A stretch of 64,000 bases of DNA from positions 1-64,000 of the forward strand of contig MWEG01000107.1 in the NCBI GenBank assembly GCA_002070945.1. The letters run 5' to 3'. Made by a program: the position numbers and the translations under genes. Origin of the DNA: Lentisphaerae bacterium ADurb.Bin082. Its GTDB lineage: Bacteria; Verrucomicrobiota; Lentisphaeria; Oligosphaerales; Oligosphaeraceae. Position 1 is the stretch's first letter. Every line of letters begins with the position of its first letter. Under the pieces are notes generated by a model. The model saw only the letters and a list, made by a program, of their open reading frames with translations. It did no database searches and was not told the DNA's origin. Below, one piece after another: positions 2,252 through 44,681 of this stretch.

Positions 2252-5206
2252 ATGATGTCTGGTCGCTGGATGATAGCCGCGATGGCGGTGTTGTTTGGAT
2301 GCGTTCACTTGTCGTCTGCCAATTTGATTCACAATGGCAGCTTTGACGGCGAGGCGGCAGCTCAGGAATTCCGCACGAATGGCGGCAAATTCAGTGTGCA
2401 TACCGAGGAGTTGACTTGGAATAAATGCGGTCGGCTTGAGATAGACCGCGTCGGTGAAAAGGATGGCGTCAAGACCCATTCTGCCGTTGTCTGGATCGGC
2501 TCCAATGGGACTGTGCCGGGCTTTGACGCTAAGCCGAATACCACTTATCGTTTTTCCATCGAGGTGCGCGGTGAAGTGGCTGGTCGGGCTAGCCTCAGCG
2601 CCAGGTGCTGGTATGGCGACAATATCTGGACTGATGGCCGGAGTGTCAGCACGAGTGTCGGCGGCTTTAAGGTGCAAAGCGGCTGGACGGTCTACAAAGG
2701 GACGTTCACGACCAGCCCGGATACTAAACGGGCGGCCTTGCAGTTGCAAATATGGGAAAGCACACAGTACGGGCCGCTGGCCTACAAGGTCGGCGACGGT
2801 ATTCTTTTTGACAATATAGAGGTGGTGGAGGATAAGCGCGACCTGGGTATGGCTGCGGCCGCCAGCGACAGCCCGGCAGTCCGGAAACGCCGGGCTGGAC
2901 GCACCGGGCGCTGCCAGGGCGCTATTGTCATAGACGGACAGCTTGACGAGGCCGACTGGCAGCAGGCGCCAGCCACTACCGACTTCCTGGCGCTTGGGAA
3001 AGATACTCCAGCTGCGGCTTCCACCACTGTCGCCATGCTTTCCGACGCGGAAAACATCTACCTCGGCATCCGTTGCCAGGAGCCGGACAAGGTCGCGGCG
3101 CAGCAGACGGCCAATGGCACGGTCATTTGGCGGGACGACGTGATTGAAGTGTTTTTCGGCCCATTGTCCAGCGATCGGCAGTTGAGCCAATTCGTCATTT
3201 GCGCTGGCGGCGGGCGCTACCAGGGCTATGGCAACGAAAGCACCCTGCCAGTGGATTATGCTGCCTGGGAGGGCAGGGCGAGCGTTAGCGACGGGTTCTG
3301 GCAGGCCGAATTGCGAATACCGTTCCGGTGCCTGGCCCAAACAGGCTTTGGCGCTGATGGCGATACGATTCCGTTCAATGTCTCTCGGCAGCGGCGCGCG
3401 GCTAAAGAGCTGTCGACCTGGTCCCGGCTGCGCGAATCGTTCCATGAAGTCGAGAATTTCGGCGTTCTGGCTCTGGTCGATTTCAATGCGGCCTTGACTA
3501 AGCTGACCGGCCAGGCTGGTGCTGATGTCGCTGATGCCGAGGCTTTTGCCCAGGCTTTGCATGACTATGACCAAAAGCAGCAGCAGGCGCGGTATGAGCG
3601 CCTGGCCAGTCGCAAATTTGCGGTGGCGCCAGTGCCGGTGACTGCCAATTTTGCGATTCCGTTTATCCCGGAAGAAGTGTTTTCGCCGGTTGACGAGATT
3701 ACGGTCACGGCGGCGGTCAATGAATTGAAAGGCGTGCCCATAGCCCTGGCGAATTTGACCGACCTCCCTGCCGAATACCAGGTCATTTTGGAGACGAAAG
3801 GTCGCTATAATGGCAGCTGGGGCTTGGAGGGATTTCCGCCTGAGCAGTTCGTCATGCGCCAGGCCGTGCGCTTCAAGGACAGTGACGACGACCCCGGCAG
3901 CCTGCGGCTCGACCCCCTCCCAAAGATGAACCAGGCCAGCACGTTGATGGTTCTGCCCAAGGAGGCTGGTCTGGTCTGGTTGGACTTTGACACTACTGGC
4001 GTCGCCCCAGGGAGCTACGAAGGCCGCCTGCGCATCATCCCGCTCAGCGAGGTGGCCAAGTGGGAGTCGATCAAAGGCGCCTACTGGAACCGCAAGTACA
4101 CCGGCGATATGCAGGACATCCCGTTTACGCTTGTCGTGCGCAATATCGTCCTGGATCGCGACCCGATCCTGCCCATGGGATTCTTCCAGGCAGCCGATAA
4201 TGAACTCTGCTTTAAGATGATGATTGACATCGGCGTCCGCAACATCGGCCTGTCGCCGTGGTCGTTCCAGTTTCCGGTTGACGACAAGGGCGACATCATT
4301 CCAGACGGCGTCACCGAGAAGCTGCAACAGCAGGGCGCCATCGTGACCCAGCACGAGGAATGGGCCCGAAAATATGGCGTCTCCCTGACGTATTTCATTG
4401 GCTTCTCAGCGTATGATGCTTTTGGACAAGTCTATGGGCTGACCAGGAAGCCTGAAAAGAAAAAGCAGGTCTGGCCGCAGTGGATCAAGGCTCTGGAAGG
4501 CTATATGCGTTCTCTGGGCGTGGCGCCGGAACGCTATGTGATCGAGACTTGGGACGAACCGCATCCAGACAAATTTCCGGAATTGCTTGAGTCGCACCAG
4601 CTGGCCAAGGCCGGTTCAAGTCGGGTGCGCCTCTCGCTGACCTTGGGAGCGCATATCATGCCAGTTGATAAAATGGCCAGCCTGGCGCCTTATACCGACG
4701 AGTGGACGCTGTGGTCGGACGGCTATTTCCAACGGCCGGAGCATTTGCAGCTTATCCGCGAACAGCAGCAGCGCGGTGTTCTTATTCGCCACTATACGTG
4801 CGACACCAGCATGCGTTCGTCCCTGGCTCGCCGCTATCGGCGCAACAACTGGTTCGGCGAATACCATCGCCTGGACGGCAACGAGATGTTCCATTTCGCT
4901 GACACCTACGGCGGCCGCGGCGCGTCTGACTGGAAGGTCACGACCCGCGGCGGCATCGTCTACAAGCTGTTTGACGAATATATGCCGTCTATCCGTTACA
5001 TGGCCTTGCGCCAGGGCATGACCGACGTCAAGTACTTGGCAGCGCTGCGGAAACTGGCGGCCGGCAATCCAGAGGCGCAGGCTTTCCTGGAGGCCGCGCC
5101 CCGGCGAGTGGTAGTCGACTTTGGCCATGACCCGGCTACGCCAGACATCGTCCGCGAGGAAGCCGTAGAATTTATTCTGAAATTGCAGGCAGGAAAGGCG
5201 AAGTAA
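2252..5206 (+). CDS. Secreted CBM / DUF4091 carbohydrate-active-like protein
   Basis: This is a 984-residue exported protein. I start it at 2252 (MMSGRWMIAAMAVLFG...) because that gives a normal signal peptide; the frame is open 19 codons further upstream. Residues ~25-205 look like a jelly-roll carbohydrate-binding module (NLIHNGSFDG at the start). Residues ~220-415 are a CBM9-like domain (IVIDGQLDEADW, then DDVIEVFFGP). After a linker rich in Ig-like strands, residues ~600-970 resemble the DUF4091 glycosidase-like family, with VIETWDEPHPD as a likely acidic active-site segment and the characteristic end (KLFDEYMPSIRYMALRQGMTDVKYL). The likely role is binding and perhaps cleavage of a polysaccharide outside the cytoplasm; the substrate cannot be told. 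An MBL-fold gene follows in the same direction. Confidence 0.8.
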   Translation: MMSGRWMIAAMAVLFGCVHLSSANLIHNGSFDGEAAAQEFRTNGGKFSVHTEELTWNKCGRLEIDRVGEKDGVKTHSAVVWIGSNGTVPGFDAKPNTTYRFSIEVRGEVAGRASLSARCWYGDNIWTDGRSVSTSVGGFKVQSGWTVYKGTFTTSPDTKRAALQLQIWESTQYGPLAYKVGDGILFDNIEVVEDKRDLGMAAAASDSPAVRKRRAGRTGRCQGAIVIDGQLDEADWQQAPATTDFLALGKDTPAAASTTVAMLSDAENIYLGIRCQEPDKVAAQQTANGTVIWRDDVIEVFFGPLSSDRQLSQFVICAGGGRYQGYGNESTLPVDYAAWEGRASVSDGFWQAELRIPFRCLAQTGFGADGDTIPFNVSRQRRAAKELSTWSRLRESFHEVENFGVLALVDFNAALTKLTGQAGADVADAEAFAQALHDYDQKQQQARYERLASRKFAVAPVPVTANFAIPFIPEEVFSPVDEITVTAAVNELKGVPIALANLTDLPAEYQVILETKGRYNGSWGLEGFPPEQFVMRQAVRFKDSDDDPGSLRLDPLPKMNQASTLMVLPKEAGLVWLDFDTTGVAPGSYEGRLRIIPLSEVAKWESIKGAYWNRKYTGDMQDIPFTLVVRNIVLDRDPILPMGFFQAADNELCFKMMIDIGVRNIGLSPWSFQFPVDDKGDIIPDGVTEKLQQQGAIVTQHEEWARKYGVSLTYFIGFSAYDAFGQVYGLTRKPEKKKQVWPQWIKALEGYMRSLGVAPERYVIETWDEPHPDKFPELLESHQLAKAGSSRVRLSLTLGAHIMPVDKMASLAPYTDEWTLWSDGYFQRPEHLQLIREQQQRGVLIRHYTCDTSMRSSLARRYRRNNWFGEYHRLDGNEMFHFADTYGGRGASDWKVTTRGGIVYKLFDEYMPSIRYMALRQGMTDVKYLAALRKLAAGNPEAQAFLEAAPRRVVVDFGHDPATPDIVREEAVEFILKLQAGKAK

Positions 5207-5351: not shown

Positions 5352-6269
5352 ATGACCAGGAATGTTCTTGCGCTTTGTTGTTTGTGCGCATGCGGGTTGC
5401 TGCCAATCAGGGCGGCGGACGCACCTGTCGCGGGAACCATGTTCTTCCAGGGTCGGGATGGCGTGGAGATAATAGCCATCCAGGATGCGCCCGCCCGCAT
5501 GAAAGGAAACTTGTTCATAAACACCAGGCCGGATTATCCCATCATGTTCAAGCTGCCGCCGGATTGGGAGGCGTCAATCAATGTTTTCCTGGTGCGCCGG
5601 GCCGGGGAGTCGTATTTGGTCGACGCTGGCAACGCGCCGGAAAGGGGCTCGCTGGCTGCCAAGCTAGCCGCGCTTGGCGTTAAGCCGGAGCAAATTGACG
5701 CGGTGTTCATAACCCACATCCACCCAGATCATGTCGGCGGTCTCCTGTCTGGCGGGGCAGGTGCCGAGGGGGCCGCGCCGGCAGCGCAATTCCCCCGGGC
5801 GGCCTTGTATATCTCCCGCGTGGAATATGACGCCTGGAAGAACGATGAGAATCGCCAGCCCCTGGGGCGGTTCTTGCAGCCATACGCTAATCGCCTGCGG
5901 CTGTTTGCGTTTGGCGACCGGCTCCCCGGCGGCTTTACGGCGCGCTCGGCGGTCGGCCATACCCCCGGCCATACGCTCTATGCGCTGGGGCAGCTGTGGT
6001 TCATCGGCGACCTGGTGCATGCGGCAGAACACCAATTCCAGCATCCGGTTGTCTGTGCGCGCTATGACCTCGATCCAGCCCAGGCCGTCACGACCAGGAT
6101 TGAGGTGATGACTGAGGCGGCTCGGCAGAACGCGGTTGTGCTCGGCGCACATATTCCCTTCCCAGGCATCGGTACCGTCGTTGGGCCGGTGAACCTGGCC
6201 GGGGTCACTCGGCCTACCGAATGGAAGCATTTCCACTTCCTGCCAATCAAGGGCAATGAGCTGCCCTGA
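5352..6269 (+). CDS. Secreted MBL-fold metallo-hydrolase
   Basis: The 305-residue protein carries the metallo-beta-lactamase zinc motif HIHPDH at residues ~122-127 and a later HTPGHT segment, with GDLVHA supplying the bridging Asp region. The start at 5352 is chosen because AGGAGG lies just upstream and it gives a signal peptide (MTRNVLALCCLCACGLLPIRA). The fold hydrolyses esters, lactones, thioesters or phosphodiesters; the overall pattern resembles lactonase/AhlD-like enzymes, but the substrate is not predictable. It lies 145 bp downstream of the DUF4091-type gene and converges with the MFS transporter, whose stop is 20 bp away. Confidence 0.85.
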   Translation: MTRNVLALCCLCACGLLPIRAADAPVAGTMFFQGRDGVEIIAIQDAPARMKGNLFINTRPDYPIMFKLPPDWEASINVFLVRRAGESYLVDAGNAPERGSLAAKLAALGVKPEQIDAVFITHIHPDHVGGLLSGGAGAEGAAPAAQFPRAALYISRVEYDAWKNDENRQPLGRFLQPYANRLRLFAFGDRLPGGFTARSAVGHTPGHTLYALGQLWFIGDLVHAAEHQFQHPVVCARYDLDPAQAVTTRIEVMTEAARQNAVVLGAHIPFPGIGTVVGPVNLAGVTRPTEWKHFHFLPIKGNELP

Positions 6270-10610: not shown

Positions 10611-10730
10611 GTGGACAGTGGACAATGGACGCCAGTGGACTTTCGTGGACGTAAGTAGACGATGGACTGTAGACAGAAGTGGACGTTAGTGGAGAGTGGA
10701 CGTGGACGTCAATGGACTTTCGTGGACGGT
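10611..10730 (+). repeat. TGGAC element, copy A
   Basis: About 120 bp of degenerate GTGGAC units spaced roughly 10-13 nt. The internal order (GTGGACAGTGGACAATGGAC, then AGTAGACGATGGAC, then GAGAGTGGACGTGGAC, ending GTGGACGGT) is shared with three other copies at 26924, 35838 and 37334. Lack of long open frames across it argues against coding. Confidence 0.85.
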
Positions 10731-13949: not shown

Positions 13950-16247
13950 TCAGGGCACGGCTTGCCGCAGTGCTTTCAAGCGTAGTTGCTCAAGGTCGGC
14001 GCCGGCTTGATACTCTGCAATCAATTTGGCGACGAATTCGTGCTTGCCCTGTTGTTTGAGCAGGTTCAGCAGATTCCAGTCTTCTTTGCCTTGCCGCAGG
14101 GCTTCGGAATGGCGAGTTGGCACTACTCTGCGCCAGCCTGGATAGACGATAGAGTAATCGTTCGGCTCCTGCAAGCCTTCCCCTTTGGGGTGGCGGTCAA
14201 AATGATTCCAGGCGCTGCCTCGAGGCGAATAATACGAGTAGAATCCCCAGCCGTTGATGCCGTAGGCTAAGCTGTCCCAGGCCATTTTGCGGTATTTCTG
14301 GATTTCCGCCGCGTTTTCGGAGCGGTCCAGGTGTCCAGAGACATAGTAGTAGGCATTCACCAGGCGTTTCGCCGTGAAAGCCGGCAGGGACGCAGGCCGA
14401 TCCTCAAGCAGGAAGAACAAGGGCATTGAGATATTCACCTCTTTGGCGTACCAGTCGGCAAGGTCGGCGGCGACAAGCTGGTCTTCGGCGACAGCACCCT
14501 CGTCGAAGCCAGTCCAGTAGCAGGGATTGACATATACATTAACCCGTGGATTCACCTGGTGAATCAGCTTGCAGGCATGAGCGACTGCGGCGATGTTCTT
14601 ATGGCTCGGCTCATCACCTGTAAAGCCATACCAGTCGTCATAGTCCAGACCGAGCGCCTCCATCTCATCAACGCGTTTTTGCACCTCCTCAGCGATTTTT
14701 TCAGCGGCGTCCTCGGGAAAATCCTCGGCTTTGGTCCAGATGCCGCAATAGATATTATGGACGTATATGCTGGGGATGACACGGCCGGCCGGGAACATCA
14801 ATTTCATGCCATGCGCCTTTGCCAGGCTGATGAGCAGCTTATTTTCTTCGTTGCTGAGGCCGCGATAATCCGTGATGCCGCAATCCAGGGCGTAGCTCAA
14901 ATCTTCCTTGGCGCGCTCTTCATGCACAAATGGGAACATCCTGGTCAGATTGTCGGAGTAGGTCTTGACAAAGGCGAAAGTTTCTGGGAGCGTCACATCG
15001 ACCACCTCTATGTCAATGCGCTGGGGTTCGCCGCCTTCAATGGCAATTGTCGCTGTGTAGCGTCCTGGGACGGCATTGCGGGTCGTGAAGGTCAGCCACA
15101 AGACAGCGGCCGCTGATGGATGCAAGGTGATTTTAGGGAAATCTCGTATCTGGCGACCATTGAGCAGGAATTTATCCATCAGGCTGCTGCCCAGCATATT
15201 ATCCTGATGGAAGATCGGCCCCAGGTTATTGCCGAAACCGCGGTCGCCAATGCTGCCCATGACTCCGACCCGGGCGCTGATGTCCTGCTCATTGGCCTGC
15301 CGTCCGTCCGCAGTCAGAATTTTCGGCGCCATCACCGTGACTTCGGTGGGTTTGCTGACTTTTGTATTTTTCAGCGCGATGGCAAGGTTTTCGGTTTCAT
15401 TGCGTGCCATGACTACTGTAATTGGGCGCCCGATTTCGTCCGGTGTGGGCAACAAGGGCTGATGGCTGATGCTTCCCCAAGTCGAGACTTGAAACCATAC
15501 GGCAGGCTGAGCTTTTTGGCTCTCTGTCAATGATTTGACCCAATAGAAAGCCTCGCGGTCTGACACCGCGCTTTTGCCGACTCCGGTGATGCTCGGATAG
15601 GCTACGCCAATGGGGTATTCGCCCTTGGCCACCGGCTCAAAAATCTCAGGCTCCTCACTCAGATTCACGGCGTCGCCCCAGGCCATGACCTGGTCTAGCA
15701 GGGTCACTTTCGGCGCTTGGATGGTTAAACGCAAATAACGCCCCGGCGGCGTGGACGCTAGTTTCAGCCGATGCAGTTCCTGTTCGGGGCAGTCTTCAAG
15801 AGAGCGTTCAAAGACAGTTTTCCAGTCGTCCTGCTCTGCGACGCTGCTTAGTTCTATTCGCAGCGCTGCTTTTTTCGAGGGTGTGATCACATCAATTTCA
15901 TTGAAAACACACTGTCGTTTAAAATCGAATATCACGACTAGTGGCCGTCCGTTGCTCAAGCCAACTCCCTTGCCGCGACGGCCGTTAAGCAGGGTTCGCA
16001 ACATTTTTCCTGTGCGTCCGGGGCGGTCGTCGGCAGGTTGGTCAGGCGCAACTTCGTAGCTGTACTCTACGCCAGTCAAAACGCACTCGCCAAAGTAATC
16101 TTCGTTATCGGAAAGCAATTTTCCTGGCGGTTCGGAGGCTTCATCGACCGAGCCGTCAAACCACCGGAGTCGGGCGCTGGCAGGGCTGCTGAGGAGGAGC
16201 ATGCTGAGCAAACCCATGCTGACTGTGCTGGTGCGAATTGTTTTCAC
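13950..16247 (-). CDS. Secreted DUF4091-like glycosidase-type protein (paralogue 1)
   Basis: The 765-residue protein has a signal peptide (LLSMLLLSSPASA). Residues ~25-190 form a discoidin-like binding domain (LVVIFDFKRQCVFNEIDVI). A middle Ig-like part follows, then a TIM-barrel-like region with WYGFTGDEPSHKN as a probable acidic catalytic or structural segment. The C-terminal signature of DUF4091 proteins is present (MAWDSLAYGINGWGFYSYY, then RQGKEDWNLLNLL). It is paralogous to the gene immediately upstream. A role in extracellular polysaccharide handling is inferred; no reaction is established for this family. It lies between its paralogue (56 bp gap) and the LacI regulator. Confidence 0.75.
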   Translation of the reverse strand: MKTIRTSTVSMGLLSMLLLSSPASARLRWFDGSVDEASEPPGKLLSDNEDYFGECVLTGVEYSYEVAPDQPADDRPGRTGKMLRTLLNGRRGKGVGLSNGRPLVVIFDFKRQCVFNEIDVITPSKKAALRIELSSVAEQDDWKTVFERSLEDCPEQELHRLKLASTPPGRYLRLTIQAPKVTLLDQVMAWGDAVNLSEEPEIFEPVAKGEYPIGVAYPSITGVGKSAVSDREAFYWVKSLTESQKAQPAVWFQVSTWGSISHQPLLPTPDEIGRPITVVMARNETENLAIALKNTKVSKPTEVTVMAPKILTADGRQANEQDISARVGVMGSIGDRGFGNNLGPIFHQDNMLGSSLMDKFLLNGRQIRDFPKITLHPSAAAVLWLTFTTRNAVPGRYTATIAIEGGEPQRIDIEVVDVTLPETFAFVKTYSDNLTRMFPFVHEERAKEDLSYALDCGITDYRGLSNEENKLLISLAKAHGMKLMFPAGRVIPSIYVHNIYCGIWTKAEDFPEDAAEKIAEEVQKRVDEMEALGLDYDDWYGFTGDEPSHKNIAAVAHACKLIHQVNPRVNVYVNPCYWTGFDEGAVAEDQLVAADLADWYAKEVNISMPLFFLLEDRPASLPAFTAKRLVNAYYYVSGHLDRSENAAEIQKYRKMAWDSLAYGINGWGFYSYYSPRGSAWNHFDRHPKGEGLQEPNDYSIVYPGWRRVVPTRHSEALRQGKEDWNLLNLLKQQGKHEFVAKLIAEYQAGADLEQLRLKALRQAVP

Positions 16248-26923: not shown

Positions 26924-27039
26924 GTGGACAGTGGAAAATGGACGTCAGTGGACATTAATGGACGTTAGTAGACGATGGACTGTGGACAGAAGTGGGCATT
27001 AGTGGGGAGTGGACGTGGACAGAAGTGGACGGTGTGGAC
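26924..27039 (+). repeat. TGGAC element, copy B
   Basis: The order of units matches copy A: GTGGACAGTGGAAAATGGAC, AGTAGACGATGGACTGTGGA, GGGGAGTGGACGTGGAC, ending GTGGACGGTGTGGAC. Confidence 0.85.
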
Positions 27040-34596: not shown

Positions 34597-35838
34597 ATGA
34601 TCACCATCCGCGTTAAATGCACCCGGCCATCGCAGATTTTCGCCATGGCCGAGGTGGCCGAATTCGACATCAGCGTTGTTTCCGAGGCATCATTGCCAGC
34701 TGATTTGACGGTCACGGTTCAGCTCAGCTGCGACACCCAGTTGGTCTTGTCGGAAACGACGTTCCGACCAGCTGCGAATGCGACGCAGCGAGTCCAGGGC
34801 AGTATGCCGTATCCCGGCTTTTTGCGCTGCCGGGCGTTTGCAGAGGTCAACGGCGAGACCGTGCTGGGCGAATGCGGAGTCGCCTTTGCCCCGGAATGCA
34901 TCCGGCCAGTGCGGCCTGAGCCAGCCGACTTTGACGCATTCTGGGCCAATGCCCTGGCCAAGCTGGACAAGATACCGCCCAATGTCGATTGCCAGGAGGC
35001 GCCAGACTTGTCCAACGATGACTATACAGCGTACCGCGTCTCTTTGGCTAATATCGGCGGGACGCGGTTGTACGGCCTGCTGACTGTTCCGAGCGCCAAG
35101 TATGGCAGCGGGCCGTTTCCAGCCGTGTTCGAAGTCCCCAGCGCCGGGCCGCCCATTCGCAACCCGGAGAACTTTGCGTTTAGGGCGCGTCCACGCGATT
35201 ATATCATTTTCAACGTCAATGTCTTTGACTTTGATTCAATCGGTCCGGACGCGGTCGCCAGTCAGCAAGCATACGCAGAGCTCACCAAGGATAGCCCCTA
35301 CACCTGCCAAGGCCAGCAGTCGCGGGAGGAATTTTTCTATTACCGGCCGATCATCGGATGTTATCGGGCAGTGCAATGGCTGTATGAGCGTGCAGACGTG
35401 GACCGCCAGCACTTTGTCTGCTACGGCGGCAGCCAGGGCGGCGGCATGGGTTTCAACCAGGTCGCGCTCGGAGGCGGGCGGTTTACTGCCGCCTTGTTCC
35501 ATATCCCGTTCCTGTGTGACACAGCAGGTGTGCTGATGGGAAGACACCCAGGCCGGAAAATCATGGATGGAGTCGAACTCGAAACAGCGTTGCGCACCAT
35601 GGCCTATTTTGACCCGGTGCATTTTGCGCGACGAATCACGTGTCCGGTCATGGTGACGGTCGGATTTGTCGACAACACGTGTTTTCCGTCCGGCATCTAT
35701 GCGGCGTACAATCAGCTGGCCGGCGAAAAGACGGTACTCAACTGCCTGGAAAGCGGCCATGGCAAATACTTTGACTATGGCAGGCACAGAACACCGATGT
35801 ACGCCTGGCTGACAAATAGGATGAGGAGAGATTTTTAG
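34597..35838 (+). CDS. Acetylxylan esterase / cephalosporin-C deacetylase (AXE1) family protein
   Basis: A 413-residue protein started at 34597 (MITIRVKCTRP) because CAAGGAGC lies just upstream. The catalytic triad is visible: nucleophile elbow YGGSQGGG (S279), Asp in VGFVDNTCFP (D359) and His in ESGHGKYF (H388), with the usual AXE1 spacing. An N-terminal Ig-like domain (~100 residues) precedes the hydrolase (RPVRPEPADFDAFWANALAK is a family hallmark). There is no signal peptide, so it probably removes acetyl groups from imported oligosaccharides. The TGGAC element begins right at its stop codon. Confidence 0.88.
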   Translation: MITIRVKCTRPSQIFAMAEVAEFDISVVSEASLPADLTVTVQLSCDTQLVLSETTFRPAANATQRVQGSMPYPGFLRCRAFAEVNGETVLGECGVAFAPECIRPVRPEPADFDAFWANALAKLDKIPPNVDCQEAPDLSNDDYTAYRVSLANIGGTRLYGLLTVPSAKYGSGPFPAVFEVPSAGPPIRNPENFAFRARPRDYIIFNVNVFDFDSIGPDAVASQQAYAELTKDSPYTCQGQQSREEFFYYRPIIGCYRAVQWLYERADVDRQHFVCYGGSQGGGMGFNQVALGGGRFTAALFHIPFLCDTAGVLMGRHPGRKIMDGVELETALRTMAYFDPVHFARRITCPVMVTVGFVDNTCFPSGIYAAYNQLAGEKTVLNCLESGHGKYFDYGRHRTPMYAWLTNRMRRDF

Positions 35839-35959
35839 TGGACAGTGGACAATGGACGTTAGTGGACTTTAGTGGACATCAGTAGACGATGGACGATGGA
35901 CGTTAGTGGACTTTAGTGGAGAGTGGACGTGGACGTTAGTGGACTTTAGTGGACGGTGG
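35838..35959 (+). repeat. TGGAC element, copy C
   Basis: It begins at the stop codon of the esterase gene and shows the full order GTGGACAGTGGACAATGGAC, AGTAGACGATGGAC, GAGAGTGGACGTGGAC, ending GTGGACGGTGG. This copy is the most regular, with GTTAGTGGACTTTAGTGGAC repeated. Confidence 0.9.
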
Positions 35960-35985
35960 AGCAAAGACAGGAGAGGCCGTTTGAA

Positions 35986-36084
35986 TTATATATGGCAGGC
36001 TGAAGCTCCAACCAACATCAGGCGTCCATGCAAGGATTGCACGGCATTAGCGACGAGGGCAAGTATTTCCTCGGCTGGCGTCAT
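35986..36084 (-). pseudogene. Truncated AbiEii-type nucleotidyltransferase (toxin) stub
   Basis: The ATG at 36084 overlaps the antitoxin stop codon as ATGA. The frame encodes only 32 residues (MTPAEEILALVANAVQSLHG, then RLMLVGASACHI) before a TAA. The LVGASA motif is where AbiEii-like nucleotidyltransferases begin their first conserved block (VGA/GxARD). The nucleotidyltransferase active site and everything beyond are missing; TGGAC element copy C lies directly past the stop. This is best read as the decayed toxin partner of the upstream antitoxin. Confidence 0.6.
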
Positions 36085-37055
36085 TTTTCCACCTCCAGGT
36101 ATATCCGCCTGACTTCCTCAGCCGCCTCGTGACAACGGCTGTCGTCCAGAACCATCAGCCCGGCATAGACCAGCAACCATGGAACAGCTTTCGCAAGTGT
36201 CCGGCTTTCAGGCCAAAAAGCCTTTATGACCTCAATATTCCCATTGGCGTCAGCGCGCCAGCGATTTCTGGCAATAACCTTGGCAATCCCGCCCTGGCGC
36301 CAGAACTGAAGGTTGGTGCTCTTCATCAAACCGGCCATGGCGGCAGCCGTTTCCCCAGCCGGCAACAGAACCCCGTCCGCCTCCCAATGCTCCATAGTTC
36401 CCTGGTAATGCTCGATGTCCAGGCGCGGCAAAAGAATCTCAGCATAATTCGCCGTCCACAAATCAATCATTCGAGCCTTGTTCCCCCAGCGGTAGCCCTT
36501 GTCCCACTTGAGCAGGTATTGACGCCCAATCGCTTCTTGGATGACATTGCTGACCGTGCCTAGGCTAACCCCGCTTTTCTTCGCTATCTCCCGGTAGGTC
36601 CATTGCAGGGCCGATGATTCAGTCAGCAACAAGAATAACACCTTCATCCCCTGCGGATTCCAGCATCGCCCAGGAGTCACACGACGAATCAAGGCGGCCG
36701 GACGTGGACAATTCTTGACGCATAACATGTTGCCGCCCAAGCGTAAATGCAAATTCCCGGCAGTGTCGGCGTAATTGACGCAAGCGCTGCTCAAACGATC
36801 CGCAACAGCAGGTGAAAAATACGGGGCTATCGCCAATACCTTCTTCTTGCCGTGCAACTCGCAGACCTCCACGACCTTCGCGGTTGCCAGCAAAGTCGCA
36901 TCCAGCACTTCAAGACAAACGCCTTCGCCAAAATTAAATCGCTCGGCAACACCAGCACGACTCCGCAGCCTTCGGGCTTTGGCTAAACCATGTTCACCCA
37001 GAAAGTCATTTATCCTTGACAGCACCACAGTCGCTAAATTTTGTTCTTTGTCCAT
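36081..37055 (-). CDS. AbiEi-type antitoxin / winged-helix regulator (type IV TA system)
   Basis: The 324-residue protein has a conserved N-terminal half ending in VNYADTAGNLHLRLG, characteristic of AbiEi-family antitoxins. A winged-helix segment follows (WTYREIAKKSGVSLGTVSNVIQEA), and the C-terminal domain has LVYAGLMVLDDSRCHEAAEEV. AbiEi proteins repress their own promoter and counteract AbiEii nucleotidyltransferases. Here the partner survives only as a 32-residue stub starting in the ATGA overlap, so the antitoxin is effectively solitary. It may persist as a regulator or as an anti-toxin against other copies. A TTGTTGAACAA palindrome lies ~21 bp upstream. Confidence 0.8.
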   Translation of the reverse strand: MDKEQNLATVVLSRINDFLGEHGLAKARRLRSRAGVAERFNFGEGVCLEVLDATLLATAKVVEVCELHGKKKVLAIAPYFSPAVADRLSSACVNYADTAGNLHLRLGGNMLCVKNCPRPAALIRRVTPGRCWNPQGMKVLFLLLTESSALQWTYREIAKKSGVSLGTVSNVIQEAIGRQYLLKWDKGYRWGNKARMIDLWTANYAEILLPRLDIEHYQGTMEHWEADGVLLPAGETAAAMAGLMKSTNLQFWRQGGIAKVIARNRWRADANGNIEVIKAFWPESRTLAKAVPWLLVYAGLMVLDDSRCHEAAEEVRRIYLEVEK

Positions 37056-37086: not shown

Positions 37087-37333
37087 CACTAAAATAATGA
37101 ACATGAGCTAAATTGCAAGCCGTTCCATTAGCCAATTCCTCAGTTTGTCATAAAATTATGTAATGGATCGGTCTTCTGTAGTGCCTTTACAAGGCACCAG
37201 TTTTGGGGTACGTCTATCCCCAGGCTGAAGCCTGAGGTTAAGCATGGTTAAGCGCCTACGGCACAAGGAAGCATGACTGTAAGCATGATACAATTTTGCT
37301 GGCTGGAAGCCTGTGGAGGACACGTGTCGAAAG

Positions 37334-37459
37334 CTCCACTGTTCATTAAGGTCCACTTCAGTCCACGTCCACTCACCACTAATGTCCACTTCAGTCCACA
37401 GCCCATCGTCTACTGATGTCCATAAAAGTCCATTTCCGTCCATTGTCCACTGTCCACTC
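37334..37459 (-). repeat. TGGAC element, copy D (inverted)
   Basis: On the minus strand it reads AGTGGACAGTGGACAATGGAC, AGTAGACGATGGGCTGTGGA, GTGAGTGGACGTGGAC and so on, in the same order as copies A-C. Confidence 0.85.
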
Positions 37460-37591
37460 AAGCGCACTATCTGGGAAGCCTGGCTCTGAGGCTCACCGGA
37501 ACTCCGAGTATCAATGACTGACGCATTACAAAATTATCAATGTGCAACCAGTGTCGCTGGAAGGCGCGGACGAGGGGCGGTTTTCGGCTCC

Positions 37592-37633
37592 AAAAAAAAA
37601 GGCACCGCGCCGGCTTAATGCTGGCGCGGTGTC
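37592..37633 (-). terminator. Rho-independent terminator of the Cys-rich gene
   Basis: On the minus strand a CACCGCGCC / GGCGCGGTG stem with an 11-nt loop is followed after CC by nine T residues. It lies 55 bp past the stop codon of the Cys-rich repeat protein. Confidence 0.9.
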
Positions 37634-37688: not shown

Positions 37689-38186
37689 TTACTCGGCTTT
37701 TTCCGTGGCGTTGGCTTTCGGGCAGGCCGCCTTTTGGGCAGCGCAACCGGTCTTGTCACAGGCTTTCATGCCTTGGCCTTGGCCCAGGCCTTTTCCTTGG
37801 CCTTGGCCCAGGCCGCCTTTGCCTTTGCCTTTGCCTTTGCCTTGGCCCATGGCGCAAGTACCTTCGCCCTTGCAGGCTCCTTTGCCTTCGCCCATGGTGC
37901 AAGTGCCATCGGCCTTGCAGGGGCATTCTGCCTTGCAGGCGCCTTTGGCTTCGCCCATGGCGCAAGTGCCTTCTGCCCTAGGGCATTCTGCCTTGCAGGC
38001 TCCTTTGCCTTCGCCCATGGCGCAAGTGCCTTCTGCCCTAGGGCATTCTGCCTTGCAGGCGCCTTTGGCTTCGCCCATGGCGCAGTTGGCTTTGCGACAA
38101 GTCATCGTCGCTTCAGTCTGGCTCCAAGCCAATCCAGCGGCCATTGTCAGAGCCATCGCCATCAGTAATGACATAGTTTTTTTCAT
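37689..38186 (-). CDS. Secreted Cys-rich repeat protein with Gly-Lys-Gln tail
   Basis: The 165-residue protein has a signal peptide (MKKTMSLLMAMALTMAAGLAWS, likely cut before QTEA). The mature part has tandem ~20-residue units of the form CPRAEGTCAMGEAKGACKAE, each with four Cys per period and one Met. A low-complexity GKGKGKGGLGQGQGKGLGQG block follows, then a final Cys-containing tail. In total 17 Cys are present. The repeat is encoded by near-identical 60-bp DNA units. The gene has a purine-rich ribosome binding site and a strong terminator, so it is a real transcription unit. The pattern suggests a periplasmic or surface metal-binding or disulphide-linked protein; I know no named family. 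Confidence 0.75.
   Translation of the reverse strand: MKKTMSLLMAMALTMAAGLAWSQTEATMTCRKANCAMGEAKGACKAECPRAEGTCAMGEGKGACKAECPRAEGTCAMGEAKGACKAECPCKADGTCTMGEGKGACKGEGTCAMGQGKGKGKGKGGLGQGQGKGLGQGQGMKACDKTGCAAQKAACPKANATEKAE
37861..38100 (-). repeat. 60-bp coding tandem repeat inside the Cys-rich gene
   Basis: Three full 60-bp units (37921-37980, 37981-38040, 38041-38100) are nearly identical, differing mainly at GGCGCC/GGCTCC and TGGCTT/TGCCTT. A diverged fourth unit with a 3-bp insertion precedes them. The period is a multiple of three, so the reading frame is kept and unit number can change without frameshift. Confidence 0.9.
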
Positions 38187-38520
38187 GGTGTCTCTTTCTT
38201 TCTTCCAATTATTTTGCTTCCCGACTATTAGCCACGCGGGAATCTGTGGGTGTTCACACGAACGGATGCACCAAGTAAGACCACGTTGCTATAAGACAGT
38301 TCCCGAGAAAAGACAGTTTTTCAAAAAGCGTCAAAAAGAATTTTTCAGGACGTTGGTAGGCATTTGTGGTCGTCAGGGCGGAGCAATAGTCTGTCTTTCC
38401 GGCGGCATCTGGCGTTGCTTTTTTTCTGGAATAGGTTATTGTGTCAGACTATTACCAAAAAGAGTCGGGATATGTTTTTCCGTCTTGGTTGCCGTACATC
38501 CATTAGGGGTTTGACTTGCC
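38187..38520. other. Divergent promoter region
   Basis: This 334-bp stretch separates the minus-strand Cys-rich gene from the plus-strand helicase gene and must hold both promoters. ACTGTCTT occurs twice on the minus strand ahead of the Cys-rich gene. No gene or dispersed repeat is seen. Confidence 0.5.
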
Positions 38521-44434: not shown

Positions 44435-44534
<100 letters not shown>

Positions 44535-44606: not shown

Positions 44607-44681
44607 CGACTGCGTACGGCAGCCGCTGTCCACACCGTCCGCCGCGTCCACTGCGTCCACAATGTCCACAGTCGGGCGTGG

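Follow-up and report, generated by a model that had tools for sequence, protein, structure and literature searches.

A genus-restricted Cys-rich repeat protein of Lentisphaerae: evolution of its units and possible roles

Organization of the locus

The 64,000-nucleotide stretch of DNA analyzed here (the window), which comes from Lentisphaerae bacterium ADurb.Bin082 (contig MWEG01000107.1), carries on its minus strand a gene for a Cys-rich repeat protein of 165 amino acids, MKKTMSLLMAMALTMAAGLAWSQTEATMTCRKANCAMGEAKGACKAECPRAEGTCAMGEGKGACKAECPRAEGTCAMGEAKGACKAECPCKADGTCTMGEGKGACKGEGTCAMGQGKGKGKGKGGLGQGQGKGLGQGQGMKACDKTGCAAQKAACPKANATEKAE (Table 1). Its leader is followed by approximately four units of 18–20 amino acids (CPRAEGTCAMGEAKGACKAE type), then by a Gly-Lys-Gln stretch and finally by a C-terminus that is conserved; Cys residues number 17, as reported in the initial annotation. 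The leader, MKKTMSLLMAMALTMAAGLAWS followed by Q, plausibly is a Sec signal peptide, as judged by inspection and predicted from the sequence, in line with the signal peptide that the same annotation assumed, and the protein is probably exported.

Table 1. Features of the repeat protein gene and its flanks (window coordinates).
Feature	Position	Strand	Details
Gene for 165-aa Cys-rich repeat protein	37689..38186	-	ORF; ortholog in JAAZKI010000216.1
Predicted signal peptide	38121..38186	-	residues 1-22, cleavage AWS/Q; sequence reading; 21/22 residues identical in ortholog
Unit 1	38046..38099	-	CRKANCAMGEAKGACKAE, 54 bp
Unit 2	37986..38045	-	CPRAEGTCAMGEGKGACKAE, 60 bp; 58/60 identical to unit 3
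Unit 3	37926..37985	-	CPRAEGTCAMGEAKGACKAE, 60 bp
Unit 4	37866..37925	-	CPCKADGTCTMGEGKGACKG, 60 bp, diverged
Partial unit 5	37839..37865	-	EGTCAMGQG, 27 bp; 26/27 identical to units 2 and 3
Gly-Lys-Gln low-complexity stretch	37770..37838	-	hexamer-like DNA repeats; ~10 residues in ortholog
Conserved C-terminal segment	37692..37769	-	MKACDKTGCAAQKAACPKANATEKAE, three Cys; alignment with ortholog
Intrinsic terminator	37592..37633	-	hairpin + T9; fold z-scores; alignment; conserved in ortholog
Conserved 5' flank (promoter + leader region)	38187..38385	-	84% identity to AS22ysBPME_247 over 187 bp
Direct repeat in 5' flank	38293-38301, 38310-38318	-	AACTGTCTT
Block in 5' flank	38244-38272	-	GGTGCATCCGTTCGNNTGAACACCCACAG; nearly invariant between both species

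The ORF is a real gene, in agreement with the initial annotation. A syntenic ortholog whose length differences keep the reading frame and a dN/dS ratio well below 1 (see below) both support its coding status; furthermore, the overlapping 324-aa ORF on the plus strand has no uninterrupted counterpart at the ortholog locus, which supports coding on the minus strand. The gene stands alone, with a 5' flank and a terminator of its own. The strong terminator noted previously is a hairpin (37601-37633, minus strand) followed by T9, with a folding energy of -23.8 kcal/mol (z = -5.2), and is conserved in the ortholog (-27.9, z = -6.4); a generic terminator scan did not pick up this hairpin, an omission that probably reflects the A-C mismatch close to the bottom of its stem. 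The 5' flank folds no better than shuffled sequences (z = +0.7), so no riboswitch is claimed, and no Rfam match anywhere in the window reaches the gathering score, with one sub-threshold chance match near the gene. The direct repeat in this flank could be an operator; no regulator is linked here to it or to the nearly invariant block. This block occurs once in each of the two gene-bearing genomes and in 0 of 29 other genomes searched; because it is single in each genome, no regulon was found.

The neighboring genes encode an AXE1 esterase, an AbiEi_2 protein and a DUF4011 helicase, and among the neighbors examined there is no metal-transport or metal-sensor gene and no associated reductase. 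Two inverted 129-nt copies of a GTGGAC-rich repeat (window 35834-35962 and 37333-37461, 84% complementary) flank the antitoxin-like AbiEi_2 gene (36081-37055, minus strand), whereas the same place in AS22ysBPME_247 contains one GTGGAC-rich stretch and no AbiEi_2 gene, an arrangement that suggests that the AbiEi_2 island was gained by insertion or lost at this repeat. Repeats of this GTGGAC-rich type are scattered throughout the genome: of 20 stretches sampled (L050-L069), 15 carry them, often more than once, and they also occur in the window at 10611-10702, 27009-27025 and 44651-44669 and at L009:489-540 and 5939-6040. The genome also contains CTGAATG-type tandem heptamer arrays (window 44443-44526; L062:8817-8898 and 14116-14196; L063:1-117 and 3625-3710), which face each other in pairs, have units that are nearly complementary (TCATTCA, TTCATAA) and possibly form long hairpins.

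Repeat units and their evolution

TRF places the 60-bp repeat array at 37868-38084, with 3.6 copies, 91% matches and a score of 351; a second, 45-bp array of two copies overlaps it. The initial annotation described exact 60-bp in-frame units; the in-frame 60-bp periodicity holds, but exactness is overstated because it fits only the pair of units 2 and 3, itself off by two bases, whereas the other full-unit pairs are 88-93% alike over aligned bases. The 20-aa unit follows the pattern C-x6-C-A-M-G-E-x-K-G-A-C-x3-C. The distances between Cys recur as 9-4-7, and each unit has the one Met noted earlier; C-A-M is present in nearly every unit despite changes in the residues between.

A single syntenic ortholog was found, in Lentisphaerae bacterium AS22ysBPME_247 of the same genus (JAAZKI010000216.1; E 2.5e-39), where it likewise lies end to end with the AXE1 esterase gene and the upstream gene lacks a Pfam match, in place of the DUF4011 helicase gene of the window. 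The ortholog encodes 132 amino acids with 13 Cys, arranged in units of 18, 21 and 21 amino acids and a degenerate fourth unit that retains only the first Cys. It has the leader, 5' flank and terminator in common with the window gene, and the C-x8-C-x3-C spacing is the same in its units 1-3; its Gly-Lys stretch is much shorter (~10 residues compared to ~25 in the window). The comparison within the genus covers two genomes in addition to the source genome, and the second congener (G001) has no copy of the repeat gene, an absence that says little given the 64% completeness of this genome, in which no close copy of the esterase is present either.

Between the window and AS22ysBPME_247, dN/dS of the repeat gene is ~0.3 (NG86 0.10/0.35; 129 codons), which indicates some constraint on the protein. 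The values for the neighboring esterase segment are 0.019/0.26, so that dN of the repeat gene is ~5 times higher; constraint on its product is weaker than on the esterase, yet not absent. In the window gene, units 2 and 3 agree with each other at 97% but with the same-position units of AS22ysBPME_247 at only 83% and 88%, respectively, and both carry the form CPRAEG, one codon shorter than its counterparts in the AS22ysBPME_247 units and in window unit 4 (CPYKAEG, CTRRAEG or CPCKADG). This greater closeness, together with the common CPRAEG form, supports a recent duplication or conversion of a unit in the window gene, as read from two MAGs in which repeats may be misassembled. The recent expansion and variable size between relatives that were predicted from the sequence are thus supported by the two species that carry the gene, and the repeats of the close relative differ in length in frame rather than by frameshifts.

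Distribution

Searches with whole-protein and unit profiles, including the unit HMM search proposed in the initial annotation, yielded no homolog outside the genus in 388 genomes across the phylum. The same result was obtained for 29 genomes of the family (profile search), 48 genomes of the order (unit profile) and GTDB genome contigs; plasmids contain no match to the units (tblastn) and viral contigs none by pattern scan. Matches in Pfam and NCBIfam are all far below the cut-off, and those in PDB are Gly-rich tails of ribosomal proteins, similar in composition only. Hence, consistent with the earlier statement that no named family has this repeat, none of these databases holds a relative, although the low complexity of the protein sequence limits all homology searches. 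Weak genome matches (E ~0.005-0.01) were taken as compositional because the two that were inspected overlap long unrelated ORFs, presumably ispD-like (L003) and 1-phosphofructokinase-like (L008) judging from sequence, and because none outside the genus recurs in profile searches. The protein is a lineage-restricted orphan, so far confined to the genus.

The presence of the gene in only two genomes of one genus, its elevated dN and the hexamer-like repeats of the Gly-Lys-Gln stretch would be compatible with a young gene whose repeats expand and contract by slippage and whose product has a marginal or bulk function, for example, as a Lys/Gly-rich disordered filler of the envelope, with the Cys a by-product of the DNA repetition. 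This explanation appears somewhat unlikely: dN/dS is below 1, and the Cys spacing, leader, C-terminus, terminator and 5' flank are all conserved.

Thiol state and possible function

The initial annotation considered a disulfide-linked surface layer. In such an envelope or surface-layer protein, Cys-Cys bonds would link units of neighboring molecules, which agrees with the plausible export signal and the regular Cys spacing. Neither DsbB nor VKOR, the two oxidases covered by the search, was found in five genomes (the source genome, two congeners and two other family members; 64-95% complete) in which positive controls were recovered, although other oxidases or abiotic oxidation are possible. 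Furthermore, exported proteins show no excess of even Cys numbers: among proteins with 1-6 Cys in ~400 kb of genome, the number is even in 13 of 21 exported and 51 of 79 cytoplasmic proteins, in a test based on sampled stretches, home-made gene and signal-peptide heuristics and 39 exported proteins. Cys frequency among predicted proteins of the same sample is 1.8% in exported and 1.9% in cytoplasmic ones, the former raised by one giant Cys-rich protein. The Cys count is odd in both orthologs, which speaks against such a layer but would also spare thiols for intermolecular links. With no DsbB or VKOR and no even-Cys excess, free thiols are more likely than disulfides for the 17 Cys, and a crosslinked layer is unlikely. 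At L052:1800-19097 (minus strand), an open frame of 5765 residues, 205 of them Cys, is built of GTLTNCTLTGN-type repeats and resembles an exported beta-helix protein of giant size in which the Cys would be stacked.

AF2 gives no usable fold and no helices (mean pLDDT 39.5), a result that is consistent with disorder and weak because the input comprised only two sequences. In the scheme we infer, the product of this single-gene unit would be a low-complexity protein that is exported and probably unfolded. Its Cys and Met side chains would remain reduced in an anaerobic envelope and would bind ions of soft metals such as Cu(I), Zn or Cd, so that the protein would act as a metal buffer in the periplasm or outside the cell; thiolate ligands would be contributed by each 20-aa unit, and metal capacity would shift through gain and loss of units in the DNA. 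Thiols and Met in a regular array should suit soft metals, and the conserved Cys spacing, the recurring C-A-M and the constraint on the protein favor such buffering. Against it stand the lack of an adjoining metal gene, the scarcity of CxC and CC motifs (one CxC in the window protein, one CC in the ortholog), the absence of His, the Cys fraction of ~12% in the mature protein, which is low for a metallothionein, and the degenerate unit of the ortholog; its confinement to a single genus speaks against an essential role in homeostasis. Soft-metal buffering by reduced thiols is the most likely of the roles considered but is proposed only tentatively, as a possibility short of probable. Alternatively, the Met residues and the numerous thiols, which are probably free in an envelope presumed to be anaerobic, could serve as a redox or sulfur buffer against oxidants, sulfide or electrophiles, a role that seems quite improbable as nothing points to it specifically and no reductase is associated with the gene among the neighbors examined.

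If metal binding is real, a phylum whose metal handling has received little study would have a bacterial metallothionein-like protein that is exported and whose capacity is modular and evolvable, and Cys-rich exported proteins would be seen to act as ligands where the known disulfide-forming enzymes are absent. If not, the gene neatly illustrates a repeat protein of restricted lineage whose units duplicate or convert. The broadest formulation, a new genus-restricted family of exported, repeat-containing metallothionein-like proteins of anaerobic Lentisphaerae that lack known disulfide machinery, with capacity evolving by whole-unit DNA duplication, is doubtful as a whole.

Comparison with known Cys-rich proteins

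Like bacterial metallothioneins (SmtA/BmtA, MymT), the window protein is small and Cys-rich, has no predicted apo fold and is proposed to bind metal through thiolates. It differs from them in its probable export, longer Cys spacing, tandem repeats and Gly-Lys-Gln stretch, and in place of their CxC/CC clusters and high Cys fraction it shows near-absence of CxC; in Pfam and NCBIfam it has no match, the only hits being far below the cut-off. The protein would thus work in a metallothionein-like manner if metal binding is correct, and is not placed in that family given these sequence differences. Metallothioneins acquire their tertiary structure after metal binding (PMC7558416), which fits a sequence without a predicted apo fold.

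Csp1-type copper storage proteins are likewise exported, Cys-rich holders of many metal ions, properties that are predicted for the window protein; however, Csp1 carries a Tat signal and folds into a rigid bundle of four helices (PMC7558416), whereas the window protein has no Pfam match and shows no helices in its low-confidence AF2 model (mean pLDDT 39.5). The multi-domain metallothioneins of snails (Alinda biplicata) are eukaryotic and unrelated in sequence, and their modules are whole metal-cluster domains; nevertheless, their large forms consist of repeated Cys-rich modules (PMC7084494), the feature in which they resemble the window protein.
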